From assembly GCA_938045295.1 (NCBI GenBank), contig CALINO010000009.1, positions 1-33,316 of the forward strand: 33,316 nucleotides of DNA, given 5' to 3'. A model generated the notes under the pieces. The model was given only the letters and a program-made list of their open reading frames with translations, was not told where the DNA came from and searched no databases. Positions 1,779 through 19,696 of this stretch are shown piece by piece. Position numbers and translations under genes: made by a program. This stretch comes from an uncultured Arenicella sp. Lineage in GTDB: Bacteria > Pseudomonadota > Gammaproteobacteria > Arenicellales > Arenicellaceae. Numbering within the stretch: the first letter of the stretch is position 1; each line of letters starts with the position of its first letter.

Positions 1779-3776
1779 GTGGTTAGGGAAATGATTTTTA
1801 TAAGATACGGCTTCACGTTTCGTAGCGTTAGAGTGTTCAACGTCAACATAGCCTGCAGTTTGCTTGTGTGCCTTTTGGGAACAAACACAGCTTTGTCGTA
1901 CGAAATAGCACCACCAAAATACAATATTGTAGACCGAATGGGCGTCAACATGGCAACCGGTCAAGTTCAAGTGTCACAAACCGACTTGGCCATTGGCGGC
2001 GAGCAAGGCCTCAGCCATACGGTGTCGCGCCACAGCAGTGAGTTTTTTGGTGGATTTAACGACAATTTTAAAGGGCTGGCAGCATCAAAAATACATTTAG
2101 CTGGTGGTGATGTGTCTTCTCAGTTCGGTATTGTACGAGTGAGTGGCAATGGGGCTACCGAAGATTTCCGCTATACGCTTTCGGGCAACACTTATATTTA
2201 TACCGCTCTCAACGACCCACGAAATAGCTTGGAGTTTTTGTCAGGCACCGGATTGGTGTTTACACAAGCGGATGGAACCAAAAACATTTATGCGCAGGCC
2301 TACAGAGGCGGAGCAACAATAACCTCCTATCGCCCAACCAATGCTGCCACTTTAAGGCTAAATCGAATTGTTTACCCCACTGGCTTGCAAGTTACGATCA
2401 ATTATAAAAATAGTGCACTAGTAAATGATTACCCCGCCGTGTCAAGCGTGAGAACCAATACCGGCTTCCAACTAAAATATCAGTATGTGGACGACAACCG
2501 ACCATTAAGCAGCGCCAAACGAAATAGCACCATGGAAGCCAGCATGACTGCCAACTCTTTATCATGGTCTAGAGGTAATCCAAAACACATTGTTGCGTTG
2601 AACAATGCGTATGAGCATTGTGATGTATCGTTGAGTTTTTGTAACACCAACCAAGCATGGCCCACGGTTACTTACCAATGGCCAGCAGGAATGCCACGCG
2701 CCATGGCAGTAGGGCAAAGCACATTCAGCATTACCGACCCCGAGGGCAGAACCACATATTATCACCATACTGGCATTGATAAATCATTACAGTTACCAAA
2801 CGGAACCTGGTTGGCGGGTATTTTACCAAACACAAAATCAGAACCTCGAATTACCTCGATTGACTCACCCGACAATAGCCCTGTTGTTTATGAATATGAA
2901 AACCGTGTTCTTTCTGGGTGTACTCCTAGCTGTGAAGGCGGTGGGCTTGGCTTTAGTTTGCCACGTTGGTTCCCGAATGGTTATGGCATTCTTACTGATG
3001 CCAGTCATGATAGCGAAACTCAGAATTACACGTTAGTTCAAAGCGCAAATGGTAGTGACACTATTAATGCAAGCGGCGGTTATAAAGCCATCAATCGCAC
3101 TCTTCACAATAACCAACTGGGCACTATTAGAGAAATAGATACTTTTGATCTTACTGTTCGGCGAGAAGACACATTCTACAACCGAATACGAGACATCTAT
3201 AATAAACGTACCGGGCTGTATACCGAGTATGAATACGATAGCCGTTTAAACATCACCGCAATCAAAGAAAACGACGTAGGCTACTTTGGTTCACCCAACC
3301 ATGAAGTAACACTGTCTGCAGCCAGTTATCCAAGCGCCTGTAATACGGCTAACCGAAAGTACTGCAACAAGGCCACTTGGGTTAGAGATGCCAACGGCCA
3401 TCAAACCGACTACACCTATCATGCAGCATCTGGCATGGTCGCCAGCGTAACTCAACCCGCTGATAAGCGGGGGGTAAGACCTCAGAGGCGCTACTATTAC
3501 GTTCAAAAAGTACCCACCCACTCTGGCGCGGATCATTCACCTATTTGGGTGCTAGATAAAGAAGAGTTTTGTCGTAACAGTTCAGCTTCAAACGGGAATT
3601 GTTCTGGTAATGATGAAACCGTTATTAAATATCAGTATGAGTTAAAGAATTTGCTTCTCATTGGCAAGGCCATTACCGCTGAAGGCAAAACGCTTCGTAC
3701 CTGCTATGAATACGATCGTTTTGCTCGCAAGATTGGTGAAACCCAGCCAAACGCCAATTTAAACAGTTGCAGTTAG
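1779..3776 (+). CDS. Large exported RHS/YD-repeat protein, first half of a split RHS
   Basis: A 665-residue protein with a hydrophobic segment at about residues 22-39 that looks like a signal sequence with an extended N-region. The early part (YNIVDRMGVNMATGQVQVS, then a GGEQGLSHT segment) resembles the N-terminal plug/shell region of secreted RHS proteins. The later part has diverged YD repeats, for example YTEYEYDSRLNITAIKEND and CYEYDRFARKIGETQ, and it ends without an RHS core or toxin tail. I keep the GTG start at 1779 because AAGGAAG (1767-1773) lies five bases upstream; ATG 1791 is an alternative with poorer spacing. The stop is nine bases from the next gene, whose Shine-Dalgarno overlaps this stop codon, so the two are translated from one message. 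Several Cys pairs fit an exported protein. Confidence 0.85.
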   Translation: MVREMIFIRYGFTFRSVRVFNVNIACSLLVCLLGTNTALSYEIAPPKYNIVDRMGVNMATGQVQVSQTDLAIGGEQGLSHTVSRHSSEFFGGFNDNFKGLAASKIHLAGGDVSSQFGIVRVSGNGATEDFRYTLSGNTYIYTALNDPRNSLEFLSGTGLVFTQADGTKNIYAQAYRGGATITSYRPTNAATLRLNRIVYPTGLQVTINYKNSALVNDYPAVSSVRTNTGFQLKYQYVDDNRPLSSAKRNSTMEASMTANSLSWSRGNPKHIVALNNAYEHCDVSLSFCNTNQAWPTVTYQWPAGMPRAMAVGQSTFSITDPEGRTTYYHHTGIDKSLQLPNGTWLAGILPNTKSEPRITSIDSPDNSPVVYEYENRVLSGCTPSCEGGGLGFSLPRWFPNGYGILTDASHDSETQNYTLVQSANGSDTINASGGYKAINRTLHNNQLGTIREIDTFDLTVRREDTFYNRIRDIYNKRTGLYTEYEYDSRLNITAIKENDVGYFGSPNHEVTLSAASYPSACNTANRKYCNKATWVRDANGHQTDYTYHAASGMVASVTQPADKRGVRPQRRYYYVQKVPTHSGADHSPIWVLDKEEFCRNSSASNGNCSGNDETVIKYQYELKNLLLIGKAITAEGKTLRTCYEYDRFARKIGETQPNANLNSCS

Positions 3777-3785
3777 GGGAGCGAA

Positions 3786-6338
3786 ATGAAACTATCACAA
3801 AATAAATTCAGTCATTCTTCGGTCAGTTTTCTCGTATTATTGATCAGCTTGTTAGTTGCTGGGCAAAGTTGGGCTGTACAAAACGCCTCTGCTTATAAAA
3901 CCGGCACTCGTTATAATTTAAACGGCCAAGTCACGGGCATAATATCACCGGCCAACACCCATACCACCGGCAACAATTACCCCGCAATAAGAAACACCTA
4001 CAACAACAGCACCGGCCTTTTGACGCGTGTTGAAACTGGTGTGTTGTCGTCATGGAAGAATGAAAATATCACCCCAAGTAATTGGAGCGGCTTTACAGTA
4101 CTAACGCGAACCGATTACACCTATGACAACCATGGGCGAAAACGCACTGAAAAAAACAGCGCTACTAATGGCAGTAAATCAACACTAACGCAATATTCTT
4201 ATGACGATTATGACCGCGTAGTATGCATGGCGGTTCGCATGAACCCAAGCAGATACAATAGCCTGCCAAGCAGCGCCTGCACACTCGGCTCACAAGGCAG
4301 TTACGGGCCTGACCGCATCACCAGATACGACTACCAAACTCGCAGCCAAAATATTGCCACTTACCATTTTGATTTGGTTGTAAGTCAAAAGCGAGCGGTC
4401 GGCACGAGCCTTCAGCAAGTGTATCGAAAGAACGAATACGACCAATATGGCCGCGTTCAATACGTCACCGATGCTAACGGCAATCGTGCTCGTATGAGCT
4501 ATGATAATCGCAGCCGATTACGTCGTTGGTATTTTCCAAACAAAACCAACCCCGGTGTTATCAACACCAGCGACTATGAACAGTACACATATGACCACCA
4601 TGGCAACCAAACCTATTTACGTAAGCGTGATGGGCGAAGTATTGGCTACCGGTATGACAAGCTTAACCGAGTAATAAAGAAAGACATACCTAACTCTTCT
4701 AGCCTAGATGTATATTACAACTACGACCTAAGAGGTCTAGAACTGCATGCACGGTTTGGGTCTGATAACGGTGCTGGCATAACTCGCACGTTCGATGGCC
4801 ATGGCAGAAAAAAATCAGAGAGTAATAATACCAGCGGCACAAACCGCACTCTCACTTACCGATACGACAATAATGGCAACCGAACGCGGCTAACCTATCC
4901 TGACAATAAATACGTTGTTTATGGCTTTGATGGGTTAAACCGGTTGGCACACATCAGCTTGCCAAACTCAACAGGCAGTATTGTTAATAGGTTTGATGCG
5001 TTTGCTCGGCCAGCGTCAACAGAGCGTGCCAGCAACGCCAATACAACCTATAGATACGATGAATTATCGCGCCTTAATCAGATCGCCGATGATTACCAAA
5101 GCAAAGGCTACGACAACACGTTTGACTACGCTTACAGCCCGGCCAACCAAATGGTGCGCCAAGACATCAGTAATGGTAATTACCATTACGACCTAAGCGC
5201 AGAAAAAGGCCTTAACCACAGCTATGGCAGCAATGGTTTAAACCAATACACCAGTGTTGCTGGTAAACAGTACCGTTATGATTCAAATGGCAACCTTACT
5301 CGAGATGCCGACACCACCTACACATACGACGTTGAAAACCGATTAACACGCGCCACAGGCGCTAAAAACGCAGCTCTCACCTATGACCCAATAGGGCGAT
5401 TAAGCAAATCAGTGGCTAATAACGTAACCACGCATTTTGTTTATGACGGCGATGCACTAGTACTCGAATACACGGGCAACAACCTAAGTAAACGGTATGT
5501 GCACTCAGTGGAAATCGACCACCCCGTTGCTGAATACAGCGGCAACACCATCAGCGCCAGTAACCTCTCGTACTTGCATCGCAATCATCAAGGTTCAATC
5601 ATCGCAGCCAGCAGCAATACCGGCAAAGGTGATTATATCAAGCAATATGACGCCTTTGGTAAAATGCAAGGCAGCAAACAAGGGCGTTTTGCGTATACCG
5701 GGCAAATATACCTGCCTGAGTTAGATTTGTACCATTACAAAGCCCGTACCTACAACGCTAATATTGGGCGTTTTATGCAAACGGACCCAGTAGGCTATGA
5801 AGACCAAATGAATCTTTATGCGTATGTACACAATGACCCCATGACTTACAACGACCCAACGGGTGAATTTGGGGTTATAGGGTTCTTTATTGGTGGTGGT
5901 GTAGAAGTTGGTATACAGCTCCTTAAAAATGGGGGTGATTTCAGCAAAGTTGATTGGACTGATGTTGCGGTTAGTGCGGCGGTTGGAGCTGTTGCTCCTG
6001 GTATGTTGGGTACTGGTAAAACTGTCTTAAAATCAAGCCAAGCGGCGAATACATTATCTAAGCAAACCAGACACGCTCGCACAAAAAATCGCCGAAGAAA
6101 ATTAACTCAACGAGTAAATGCTCACAAAAAGAATATTAAAACTGCGGTAAAAGTTCAAGCAAGCTTCCAAGCCGCAAAAGCAGTTGGAAAGGAACTAGCT
6201 GATGGCGTGGAAAGGGCTGTGAATATAGAAAGACCTGATAGGTCTAGCTCTGAGACTCAAGAAAATAAAAACGATACTATGGATCACAAAGAACCTACTC
6301 TTGATTCAAACCGTATGGGGAGAAATCGTGATATTTAG
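3786..6338 (+). CDS. Large exported RHS-core protein with variable C-terminal tail
   Basis: An 850-residue protein with its own signal peptide (hydrophobic residues 13-27, likely cut after SWA near residue 30). About residues 35-630 are YD repeats such as [16 protein letters not shown] and [15 protein letters not shown]. The RHS-associated core is at about 635-690 ([23 protein letters not shown], then [10 protein letters not shown] and the closing DPTGE). After the core, about 155 residues form the family's variable region: a Gly/Val-rich hydrophobic stretch, a [13 protein letters not shown] segment, then a very basic part ([10 protein letters not shown]) and a polar end. I do not recognise a toxin domain there, so it may be a novel, truncated or inactive tail. 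A strong AGGGGAG (3775-3781) precedes ATG 3786. The product probably assembles with the 665-residue protein into one shell. Confidence 0.88.
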
Positions 6339-14442: not shown

Positions 14443-15786
14443 ATGGAAAACACGCTCCTTTGGGATAAATGCTTAGAAAAGTTAGAAGATGAAATTGAAG
14501 ATCGTGATTTTCATACTTGGGTTAGGCCACTTAGCGTCAGCAATAATGACAACAACCTGGTTTTATACGCACCCAACCGGTTTATCGTTGACTGGGTAAA
14601 CGACAATTTATTCGACACGCTGTTATCCACCGCACAACACTTTGCGGGCAATGAGGTTGTGGTGTCGATATCGATGACACAAAACAAAAATAAACCTCAA
14701 AGCAATAAACAAAACGTTTCAATAGAAGAACCCAGTGAGACAACCGATTTGGCATCTGAGTTTGGTACTAATGTGCTTAATTCAGCCTTCAGTTTTGAAA
14801 ACCACATTGAAGGTAAATCAAACCAAATTGCACGTGCCGCCACCAAACAGGTAAGCGAGAACCCAGGCACGGCTTACAACCCCTTATTTATTTACGGTGG
14901 GGTGGGTTTAGGGAAAACGCATTTAATGCATGCCGCGGGTAACTTAATTCACAAGAACAAAAAGAACGCCAACGTCGCTTACGTTCACTCTGAACGATTT
15001 GTTTCTGACATGGTGAAATCCATTGAACGAAACTCCATGGAAAAGTTCAAAAAGTACTATCGTTCGCTGGACGCATTACTGATTGACGATATTCAATTTT
15101 TTGCCGGCAAAAACCAATCGCAAGAAGAATTCTTCCATACGTTTAACACGCTGCTTGAAACGGGCGCGCAAATCGTATTGACAAGCGACAAATTCCCAAA
15201 GGAAATCAATAACTTACAAGAAAGATTAACTTCCCGATTTGAAAGTGGTTTGACGGTTCGAATTGACCCGCCTGAATTGGAAACCCGTGTGGCTATCCTT
15301 AAAAACAAAGCGCGCAAGAACGAAATCGAGCTCAATGACGAGGTTGCGTTTTTAGTGGCAAAGAAAATTCGCTCGAATGTGCGCGAGTTGGAGGGCGCCT
15401 TACACCGCTTAGTCGCAAGCTCACGTTTCACTCATCGTGATATTGATCTGGATTTAGCAAAAGACACCCTGCAAGACTTAACCCTGTTTCAAGAGCGAAA
15501 GATATCCATCGAAAATATTCAGAAGACGGTGGCTGATTTTTACAGCATTCGCGTGTCAGATCTAAAATCCAAACGCCGTAATCGGCAAATTGCACGGCCT
15601 CGACAAATCGCCATGGCTCTGGCCAAAGAGTTAACCAGCTTAAGTTTACCCGACATTGGCGATGCTTTTGGTGGGCGAGACCACACTACAGTGATTCACG
15701 CCTGTAAAAAGGTGGATGAGCTGACCCGCACAGAGCCAAAAATTAACGAGGACTATAAAAGTTTGTCGAAAATATTATCGGTTTAG
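14443..15786 (+). CDS. dnaA: DnaA, chromosomal replication initiator
   Basis: A 447-residue AAA+ protein that binds DnaA boxes and opens the origin. Domain I is residues 1-80 (LLWDKCLEKLEDEIEDRDFHTW). Domain II is a short polar linker, about 80-115. Domain III has Walker A GGVGLGKT at 152-159 and Walker B LLIDD at 212-216. Domain IV carries the DnaA signature FGGRDHTTVIHACKKV near 409-424, the DNA-binding helix-turn-helix. Length is slightly below E. coli because of the short linker. ATG 14443 begins the canonical N-terminus, although only a weak ribosome-binding sequence precedes it. It is followed by a box-rich spacer and dnaN. Confidence 0.98.
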   Translation: MENTLLWDKCLEKLEDEIEDRDFHTWVRPLSVSNNDNNLVLYAPNRFIVDWVNDNLFDTLLSTAQHFAGNEVVVSISMTQNKNKPQSNKQNVSIEEPSETTDLASEFGTNVLNSAFSFENHIEGKSNQIARAATKQVSENPGTAYNPLFIYGGVGLGKTHLMHAAGNLIHKNKKNANVAYVHSERFVSDMVKSIERNSMEKFKKYYRSLDALLIDDIQFFAGKNQSQEEFFHTFNTLLETGAQIVLTSDKFPKEINNLQERLTSRFESGLTVRIDPPELETRVAILKNKARKNEIELNDEVAFLVAKKIRSNVRELEGALHRLVASSRFTHRDIDLDLAKDTLQDLTLFQERKISIENIQKTVADFYSIRVSDLKSKRRNRQIARPRQIAMALAKELTSLSLPDIGDAFGGRDHTTVIHACKKVDELTRTEPKINEDYKSLSKILSV

Positions 15787-15814: not shown

Positions 15815-15823
15815 TGTGGATAA
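15815..15823 (-). promoter_or_regulatory. DnaA box 1
   Basis: Exact TTATCCACA on the minus strand, 28 bases after the dnaA stop codon; it faces the other two boxes. Confidence 0.85.
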
Positions 15824-15859
15824 GTTCTGTATAAATACGGTATTATTCTTTAACAAAAG

Positions 15860-15868
15860 TTATCCACA
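15860..15868 (+). promoter_or_regulatory. DnaA box 2
   Basis: Exact TTATCCACA on the plus strand, 36 bases after box 1, preceded by AAAAG. Confidence 0.85.
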
Positions 15869-15904
15869 TTTCATCAACAGTTTATTATTTTGTTTCAAAA
15901 GTAC

Positions 15905-15913
15905 TTATCCACA
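15905..15913 (+). promoter_or_regulatory. DnaA box 3
   Basis: Exact TTATCCACA on the plus strand, exactly 45 bases (start to start) after box 2, close to four helical turns, followed directly by the A/T-rich tract. Confidence 0.85.
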
Positions 15914-16015: not shown

Positions 16016-17122
16016 ATGAATATTAATATACAAAAAGAGACACTGGAAAAACCACTTTCGCAAGTAATCGGAGTGGTGGAGAAAAGGCAAACACTCCCCA
16101 TTCTAGGAAACGTATTTATAGAGTTAAACCAAGGAACATTAACCTTAGTCGGTTCTGATTTAGAAACAGAAATAACCACGAGAGTGCATAACGTCAGTGG
16201 GCAAGACGGTAAGACAACGGTTTCTGCTCGTAAGTTGTTTGATATATGCCGATCGCTTAAAAACGAGGCTTTGTTAACATTAACCACTGAGTCCGACAGT
16301 AAAATGGTTGTCTCAGCGGGTAAGAGCCGGTTTACATTACAAACGCTGTCGGCTGACGATTACCCTAGATTAGAAGAAACCCATTGGAAGCATGAGTTTC
16401 AAATCCAACAGAACCAGTTAAATAGTTTATTAACCAAAACGTCTTTTTCCATGGCTCAACAAGACGTTCGTTATTTTTTGAACGGTCTGTTAATTGAAAT
16501 ACATAACGACCATATTTTATCGGTAGCCACTGATGGACATCGTTTGGCTAAAACTCAAGTTCATGTAGAAAATACCGACATTGAGTTTGTACAAAGCATT
16601 GTTCCAAGAAAAGCGGTGTTGGAAATTGGTAAATTTCTTGATGCTGGTAGTGAAGAGCCCGTGGATGTAAAGCTTAATGCCAGTCATATTTCGATTAGGT
16701 CTGGCGACTTTATGTTTATATCTAAGTTGATTGACGGTCGATTTCCCGATTATGAAAAAGTAATACCGGCCAATTTAGATAAGCACATCATTATTAACAG
16801 AGAGAATTTAATTGAAATTCTTAGCCGTGCTGCGATCTTAAGTAATGAAAAGTTCCGAGGTGTGTCACTTAAAGTGGAAAATAATCTGTTACAAGTGCGT
16901 TCGCACAACCCAGATCAAGAACACGCTAAAGACGAAATGGAAGTTCAATATGACAACACCTCCATTGAGATTGGGTTCAATGTGAGTTATTTACTGGAAG
17001 CTTTAAGAGCTTGTGATTCAGAAAACATTGATTTGGGCCTACTTGATCCGAATACAAGTTGCACATTCCATGCACAAGAATCAAACGACACTTTGTATTT
17101 AATCATGCCAATGCGTCTTTAA
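16016..17122 (+). CDS. dnaN: DnaN, DNA polymerase III beta sliding clamp
   Basis: A 368-residue clamp that rings DNA and tethers polymerases; active as a dimer. The three repeated clamp folds are complete. The family features LPILGNVFIEL, LKVENNLLQVRSHNPDQEHA and the C-terminal LYLIMPMRL, which forms part of the partner-binding pocket, are all present. Length matches the E. coli protein (366). ATG 16016 follows the origin spacer without a strong Shine-Dalgarno. A terminator follows the gene within 25 bases, so it is not co-transcribed with gyrB, and no recF follows. Confidence 0.98.
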   Translation: MNINIQKETLEKPLSQVIGVVEKRQTLPILGNVFIELNQGTLTLVGSDLETEITTRVHNVSGQDGKTTVSARKLFDICRSLKNEALLTLTTESDSKMVVSAGKSRFTLQTLSADDYPRLEETHWKHEFQIQQNQLNSLLTKTSFSMAQQDVRYFLNGLLIEIHNDHILSVATDGHRLAKTQVHVENTDIEFVQSIVPRKAVLEIGKFLDAGSEEPVDVKLNASHISIRSGDFMFISKLIDGRFPDYEKVIPANLDKHIIINRENLIEILSRAAILSNEKFRGVSLKVENNLLQVRSHNPDQEHAKDEMEVQYDNTSIEIGFNVSYLLEALRACDSENIDLGLLDPNTSCTFHAQESNDTLYLIMPMRL

Positions 17123-17142
17123 AGCGGTATTTTCACTTGACC

Positions 17143-17174
17143 AAAAAAAGCCACCGAGTCGGGTGGCTTTTTTT
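17143..17174. terminator. Bidirectional-looking terminator after dnaN
   Basis: GCCACC (17150-17155) and GGTGGC (17162-17167), extended by A7 and T7 flanks, form a strong stem with a six-base loop and a T tract at 17168-17174. It separates dnaN from gyrB. Confidence 0.85.
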
Positions 17175-17175
17175 A

Positions 17176-17191
17176 TGTTCCACGTGAAACA
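17176..17191 (+). other. parS: parS site 1 (ParB centromere site)
   Basis: TGTTCCACGTGAAACA equals the classical ParB/Spo0J binding sequence, with the palindromic CACGTG core. ParB loads here and spreads, and ParA moves the origin region. The parAB genes are not in the window; in many relatives they lie just beyond mnmG and rsmG, that is just off the left edge. Confidence 0.85.
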
Positions 17192-17202
17192 TAAAATTAA
17201 AA

Positions 17203-17218
17203 CGTTTCACGTGGAACA
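17203..17218 (-). other. parS: parS site 2, inverted relative to site 1
   Basis: Read on the minus strand it is TGTTCCACGTGAAACG, one terminal base different from site 1. Together the two sites sit in 19-bp perfect inverted arms (17172-17190 and 17204-17222) with a 13-base AT-rich spacer. Centre-to-centre spacing is 27 bases. Confidence 0.82.
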
Positions 17219-17257
17219 TAAATGAATCGAATAGTTTAATGTGCAGTAGTTAGGTGA

Positions 17258-19696
<2,439 letters not shown>

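Follow-up and report, generated by a model that had tools for sequence, protein, structure and literature searches.

The window, the whole stretch of 33,316 nucleotides that was analysed (contig CALINO010000009.1 of an uncultured Arenicella sp., assembly GCA_938045295.1), contains the genes mnmE, yidC, dnaA, dnaN and gyrB. Two parS sites are found in the spacer between the last two of these genes, behind the terminator of dnaN and ahead of gyrB. The features of the region are as follows:

14443-15786, plus strand: dnaA (TIGR00362, above the cut-off)
15815-15823, 15860-15868 and 15905-15913, no strand assigned: three TTATCCACA boxes in the dnaA-dnaN interval (putative oriC)
16016-17122, plus strand: dnaN (TIGR00663, E 2.4e-105)
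17150-17174, plus strand: intrinsic terminator of dnaN (hairpin 17150-17167 with the stem GCCACC/GGTGGC, T-run 17168-17174)
17172-17190, plus strand: left arm of a 19-bp inverted repeat, by direct reading
17176-17191, plus strand: parS site 1, TGTTCCACGTGAAACA, an exact match to the consensus; the pair is kept in relatives
17191-17203, no strand assigned: 13-base AT-rich spacer between the arms, by direct reading
17203-17218, minus strand: parS site 2, TGTTCCACGTGAAACG, with the last base off consensus
17204-17222, minus strand: right arm of the inverted repeat, by direct reading
17270-17280, plus strand: conserved extended -10-like element TTTGTTACAAT, the putative gyrB promoter, from an alignment of 18 spacers of the genus and family
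17318-19696, plus strand: gyrB (TIGR01059, above the cut-off), with no recF between it and dnaN

Further upstream of the origin region, positions 3786-6338 encode an 850-aa protein that has a match to an RHS repeat; the 665-aa open reading frame that precedes it gave no Pfam match at E 1e-5.

The loose DnaA box pattern occurs five times in the window against 5.68 expected, which is not above chance, and the only box evidence that speaks for an origin, putative as it is, is the clustering of boxes between dnaA and dnaN. With dnaA, dnaN and the three clustered boxes all within 1.4 kb, the parS sites lie close to this putative oriC. The earlier sequence-only reading of the DNA had placed the pair some 1.3 kb beyond the putative oriC, with which the cluster at 15815-15913 agrees, and directly behind the dnaN terminator in front of gyrB, which is borne out by the hairpin at 17150-17167 immediately preceding the arms; the end of the terminator T-run overlaps the left arm. 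The terminator was detected by a purpose-made terminator scan, while a consensus scan of 17080-17400 reported neither it nor a gyrB promoter.

Measured against the 16-bp consensus TGTTYCACGTGRAACA, site 1 is exact and site 2 has one mismatch, at its end base. The two sites are in opposite orientation and 27 bp apart from centre to centre, and the arms that contain them are perfectly complementary across 19 bp, so that the geometry described earlier (two parS sites, 19-bp perfect inverted arms, a 13-base spacer, 27 bp) is exact on re-reading. Arms of 14-16 bp arise automatically, because parS is itself nearly palindromic and the copies are oppositely oriented. What goes beyond this is some three to four extra AT bases, which are partly the T-run of the dnaN terminator. 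As RNA, 17172-17222 folds at -26.8 kcal/mol. The right arm is followed by TGAATCG and not by a T-run, and by the criterion of a stem plus T-run the arms of the window do not qualify as an intrinsic terminator; the separate terminator of dnaN is intact. With up to three mismatches allowed, the parS pattern matches four times in the window (at two places, once per strand), where 0.36 ± 0.59 matches would be expected by chance, and none of 100 shuffles of the window reached four. Genome-wide (2,994,915 bases, 92 contigs), these two are the only exact 14-mer cores, and two more places match the 16-mer with two mismatches.

The genome also encodes a matching binding protein, on a contig other than that of the window. 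This ParB of 289 aa scores 191.9 bits with TIGR00180 against a cut-off of 58.45, and its best matches among solved structures are ParB structures, for example 7bnk and 6t1f. The sequences GERRWRAA and ENIQRE are visible in its translation, which we take to be motifs that support a chromosomal-type ParB. By-eye reading places a 256-aa ParA-like open reading frame with KGGVGKTT immediately upstream of parB, an RsmG-like one also ahead of it, and an aquaporin-like one after it (2534-3226 of locus L005). Among relatives, ParB was found in 39 of 41 genomes at E <= 0.001, and above the cut-off in 38. The earlier identification of the sites as centromeres thus holds, since a chromosomal-type parB was found in the genome, beside parA, and the CACGTG cores are kept in close relatives. 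It is well supported, by sequence comparison, that the element is the chromosomal centromere of an Arenicella-type gammaproteobacterium. In chromosomes with such a system, ParB dimers load at each 16-bp parS, bind CTP and close into clamps that slide into the adjoining DNA; ParA moves these apart, and the origin region is thereby segregated. By analogy, ParB would load on both sites of the window, and ParA-driven separation would then segregate the origin region.

The pair is not peculiar to this genome. In 11 of 11 loci that were found by DnaN alone, with parS disregarded, the dnaN-gyrB spacer contains two exact cores. The records of these loci are titled Arenicella (seven), Gammaproteobacteria bacterium (two), Proteobacteria bacterium (one) and Marinomonas (one); the last (L044) has a DnaN 78% identical and was counted in the genus. 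Fourteen of the 18 genomes of the genus have sites, with gyrB adjoining in each, and the other four are among those with no gyrB match. Across the order, 83 of 100 genomes (own genome included) have an exact core: a by-eye row count gives 64 with exactly two, 14 with one and five with more than two. The 17 genomes lacking an exact core comprise 13 with no gyrB match at E 1e-35, three (G065, G073 and G094) with two deviant-core sites before gyrB, and one (G062) with neither a parS site nor dnaN upstream of gyrB.

The 14 one-site genomes are mixed. In two (G057 and G068), a second site is present but carries one mismatch; in two others (G023 and G066) the dnaN-gyrB spacer holds just the single site; among f11, six genomes have one exact site genome-wide and no site at up to two mismatches in the 1.5 kb before gyrB; two (G028 and G078) have no site before gyrB and no dnaN upstream of it; G088 is truncated where its contig ends, and no gyrB was seen in G098. 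In two of the f11 genomes (G030, contig C18; G038, contig C55), the single parS lies about 3 kb from parB.

The spacing of the pair ranges from 27 to 106 bp in the genus (15 pairs, L044 included) and from 23 to 871 bp at other loci of the order (50 pairs). All order pairs wider than 106 bp belong to f9, whose range is 69-1568 bp, with G037 at 1568 bp. By eye, no single period is apparent that would suggest tuning to the DNA helix. Dropped before the counts were repeat genomes (L001, L002, L051, L052, L036-L043, L045 and L046), the tandem array of L062/L241 described below, core-mismatch sites and sites with incomplete flanks. A tight pair had been thought unusual, a view that these data do not support: in this order, and in relatives lacking recF, two parS sites close together between dnaN and gyrB are the usual state, with varying spacing and orientation.

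In the three genomes with deviant cores (L257 of G094, L259 of G065 and L260 of G073), both copies share one deviation, which is CATGTG, CATATG, or, in G073, CACGGG with its reverse complement. A common deviant core in both copies is a sign of concerted change.

The nearest known arrangement is that of Pseudomonas aeruginosa, where parS1 and parS2 lie inside recF (PMC3909081 and PMC5521831; the site sequences are in PMC4368675). The window resembles it in consensus, in position within the dnaA-dnaN-recF-gyrB cluster and in the number of two sites. However, the sites of P. aeruginosa are intragenic in recF, whereas the window lacks recF and has its sites in a spacer, at a distance of 27 bp; P. 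aeruginosa additionally has parS3, parS4 and weaker sites. Compared with other ParABS chromosomes, as reviewed in PMC7022226, the window shares the 16-bp near-palindrome near oriC and the encoded ParA and ParB, but differs in number and spacing, its genome having just two exact cores in a tight doublet.

To place the pair in a wider frame, 108 gammaproteobacterial genomes outside the genus were sampled by gyrB and not by parS. In all, 110 of 140 genomes were examined (30 search loci and 80 in listing order), G178 was skipped for its short gyrB frame, and the other 30 of the 140, mostly the lowest-scoring, fell outside the survey. In this survey, recF was called wherever tblastn with one RecF query gave a match at E < 1e-5.

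By this measure, recF lies upstream of gyrB at 85 of the 108 loci, and the exact sites there number two at 70 loci, one at ten, none at four and three at one. The two sites are typically far apart: 66 of the 70 two-site loci (66 of all 85) have a spacing of 600-660 bp, with a median of 621. The spacing is divisible by three in 68 of the 70, and in the 67 wide pairs at 600-670 bp both sites stand in the recF codon frame and read F-H-V-E/K; the second site ends before the recF stop in 65 of them. The nine loci where recF is absent and dnaN is adjacent look different, six having two sites 26-38 bp apart and three having one site. The association of tight or wide spacing with recF status has a Fisher p of 1.3e-7, a statistic that ignores descent. 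Two loci bear recF and are nevertheless tight (L130 at 60 bp, L182 at 50 bp). At the remaining 14 loci, both recF and dnaN are missing upstream of gyrB, and these loci were placed in neither group; 11 of them have no exact site, L223 has one, L143 has two at 987 bp and L241 has an array.

This array (L241, 1244-1858 of contig C48 in G199; also L062) repeats a 43-bp unit that contains parS about 14 times in tandem, with 12 exact cores, and immediately precedes gyrB on a 113-kb gammaproteobacterial contig. It resembles plasmid sopC arrays. In sopC of plasmid F, several centromere sites are set close together in a tandem array of many repeats; the window likewise has close-set sites, but only two of them, and the spacer is unrelated.

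Within the order, recF is rarely found. No candidate in the window's own genome scores above the cut-off, and with 18 candidates scored per genome, recF is above the cut-off in two of the 100 genomes and was not found above it in the other 98. In these two (G034 and G070), the sites on the recF contigs (C361 and C272) are widely spaced, at 612 and 639 bp, while a closer pair (80 and 155 bp) is found on another contig; the recF contigs are likely to be contamination. A quick DnaN tree was built from 91 rows. In it, all but one of the 19 order members form one clade (SH-aLRT 99) with f83, f65 and f106, all of them lacking recF at dnaN-gyrB; the order member outside is the long-branch L026. The tree is weakly resolved, with 48 of 88 inner branches open, and of the eight changes in the recF label that it shows, the starred branches force only one. 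One old loss of recF is well supported by these comparisons, and further losses accompanied by tight pairs are likely at L237, L066, L177 and L233.

Taken together, these observations make it very probable that the tight doublet of the window is the recF parS pair retained after the loss of recF, and that the sites are ordinary chromosomal centromeres. An ancestor of the order would have lost recF, the host of two intragenic parS sites about 620 bp apart; both would have stayed beside gyrB, and they would be tightly paired because recF was lost while two sites were kept. The arrangement would then be a lineage-wide variant of ordinary centromere sites, for which the loss of recF is the best explanation. 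It presupposes that ParB binds here, that selection has kept two sites, and that both tight sites descend from those of recF, each of which we infer. The sites probably need neither the opposite orientation nor the long arms in order to function.

Bacteria without recF might thus serve as a natural experiment: they suggest that parS is kept when its host gene goes, often as two sites and down to 23 bp apart, and it becomes testable why a chromosome should retain several parS sites and not just one. The constraint on two FHVE/K stretches of RecF may come from the DNA and not from protein function. Searches found no paper on Arenicella and ParB, on parS pairs, or on parS and recF in gammaproteobacteria, and among the matches listed for other parS searches, the titles and abstract beginnings contain no mention of recF-loss doublets or parS terminators. 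Livny and co-workers reportedly published a comparative survey of parS sites in 2007, which may already have described how general parS sites in recF are.

It is tempting to go a step further and propose that a pair beside gyrB is selected independently of the gene that hosts it, a proposal whose chances are put slightly short of even. It would bring together the dual coding of FHVE/K in recF, the tight doublet after the loss of recF, the concerted changes, and, in some Arenicella, a stem that serves dnaN as terminator, with centromere and terminator in one palindrome. This last element rests on the flanks of the sites. Within the genus, 11 of 30 sites continue past the 16-mer with at least four complementary bases (re-pairing control 0.65 ± 0.78, maximum 5 in 5000), against 8 of 109 other sites of the order (control 0.48) and 0 of 46 in a first class set. 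Among the gyrB-chosen class sites, such extensions occur in 3 of 153 with recF (control 0.56, p 0.017) and in 0 of 18 without it. The longest is that of site 2 in L010, where all 14 flank bases examined are complementary; in the window, site 1 is extended by five bases (TTTTA/TAAAA) and site 2 by none. Since flanks differ between species, what is extended is the symmetry rather than the motif. Among the other perfect palindromes of these genus loci, 19 of which have a half-length of 6 or more, none exceeds 9.

In four genomes of the genus (L008, L009, L013 and L044), no intrinsic terminator was found behind dnaN other than a parS stem followed by a T-run, and these are all four of the genus genomes in which site 1 lies less than 30 nt after the dnaN stop. 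The 11 other genus loci, searched by the same scan, comprise nine with a separate terminator before site 1 and two (L010 and L018) with none; one of the nine, L017, has a weak parS stem besides. With L017 counted, the association of a parS-stem terminator with a short distance from dnaN has a Fisher p of 0.004; L008 and L009 share flank letters, and the cases therefore represent about three events. Apparently, the parS palindromes of L008, L009, L013 and L044 serve as dnaN terminators. Such an overlap of centromere and terminator in relatives of the window is possible and provides the freshest lead; parS stems doubling as terminators would, if true, link centromere loading with shielding from transcription.

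The extended palindromes might instead be mainly mutational, arising by template switching at near-palindromes, and not functional. This is a serious contender, although on balance doubtful. In its favour, many extended sites have no T-run, and flank letters differ yet remain complementary; the concerted core changes, one of them in inverted form, and the small excess among class sites with recF (the 3 of 153 above) fit as well. Moreover, in 52 other loci of the order, a parS-stem terminator was called only in L087, and 41 had no terminator at all. Mutation does not readily account, however, for the strong bias towards one lineage (11 of 30 in the genus against 3 of 153 in the recF-bearing class sites), nor for a parS-stem terminator in every one of the four genus genomes with less than 30 nt between the dnaN stop and site 1.

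Another explanation concerns the origin of the doublet itself: a single parS may have been duplicated locally after the loss of recF, or a lost site may have evolved anew. The tblastn search with one RecF query found no recF match between the two sites in the order, so that the second site may be re-evolved and not inherited, and three of the nine outgroup loci lacking recF have a single site. The shared deviant core in both sites of three g22 genomes fits copying, and equally joint adaptation. Against this, two sites are already present in the same dnaN-gyrB stretch at 70 of 85 recF loci, which renders duplication or re-evolution rather unlikely and favours retention of the recF pair.

The suggestion of the sequence-only reading that the inverted pair also regulates gyrB, by folding as a cruciform or, in the leader RNA of gyrB, as a hairpin, is very improbable and was set aside on the position of the putative promoter and the variable spacing and orientation. 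The arms do fold strongly (at the energy given above) and lie upstream of gyrB. However, the -10-like element at 17270-17280 is downstream of the arms, and the dnaN terminator is directly upstream of them. In the alignment of 18 spacers, TTTGnTAnAAT is the single conserved block ahead of gyrB besides parS, about 40 nt before the start codon, and site 2 of the window ends about 50 bp upstream of it. If gyrB is transcribed from this element, for which a start near 17287 is predicted, its transcript does not include the arms; on this comparative evidence both parS sites probably lie outside the gyrB leader, although a promoter upstream of the arms may exist as well. Nor are the inverted arms a fixed feature of relatives: only 4 of the 15 genus pairs, whose spacing spans 27-106 bp, are asymmetric and inverted, and the outer flanks of the pair match no better than by chance in the genus (p 0.59) and slightly above chance in the rest of the order (p 0.01).

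What does speak for the regulatory reading is the orientation of asymmetric pairs in the order: among 64 two-site loci, nine such pairs are inverted and none direct, where some 2.5 of either kind would be expected. Those of G024, G039 and G074 are also inverted, and the three-site L025 is direct. By comparison, among the 67 wide pairs in recF the asymmetric ones are direct in 11 cases and inverted in one, in keeping with the orientation that the codons favour, and another class set has four inverted and three direct. The inverted bias in the order is suggestive across related, non-independent species; it could be produced either by hairpin-mediated correction from copy to copy or by selection for symmetry. 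A different influence on gyrB is conceivable by analogy with P. aeruginosa, where an excess of ParB lowers the expression of nearby genes including gyrB, as reported in PMC5521831: ParB bound at the pair in the window could likewise lower gyrB expression.
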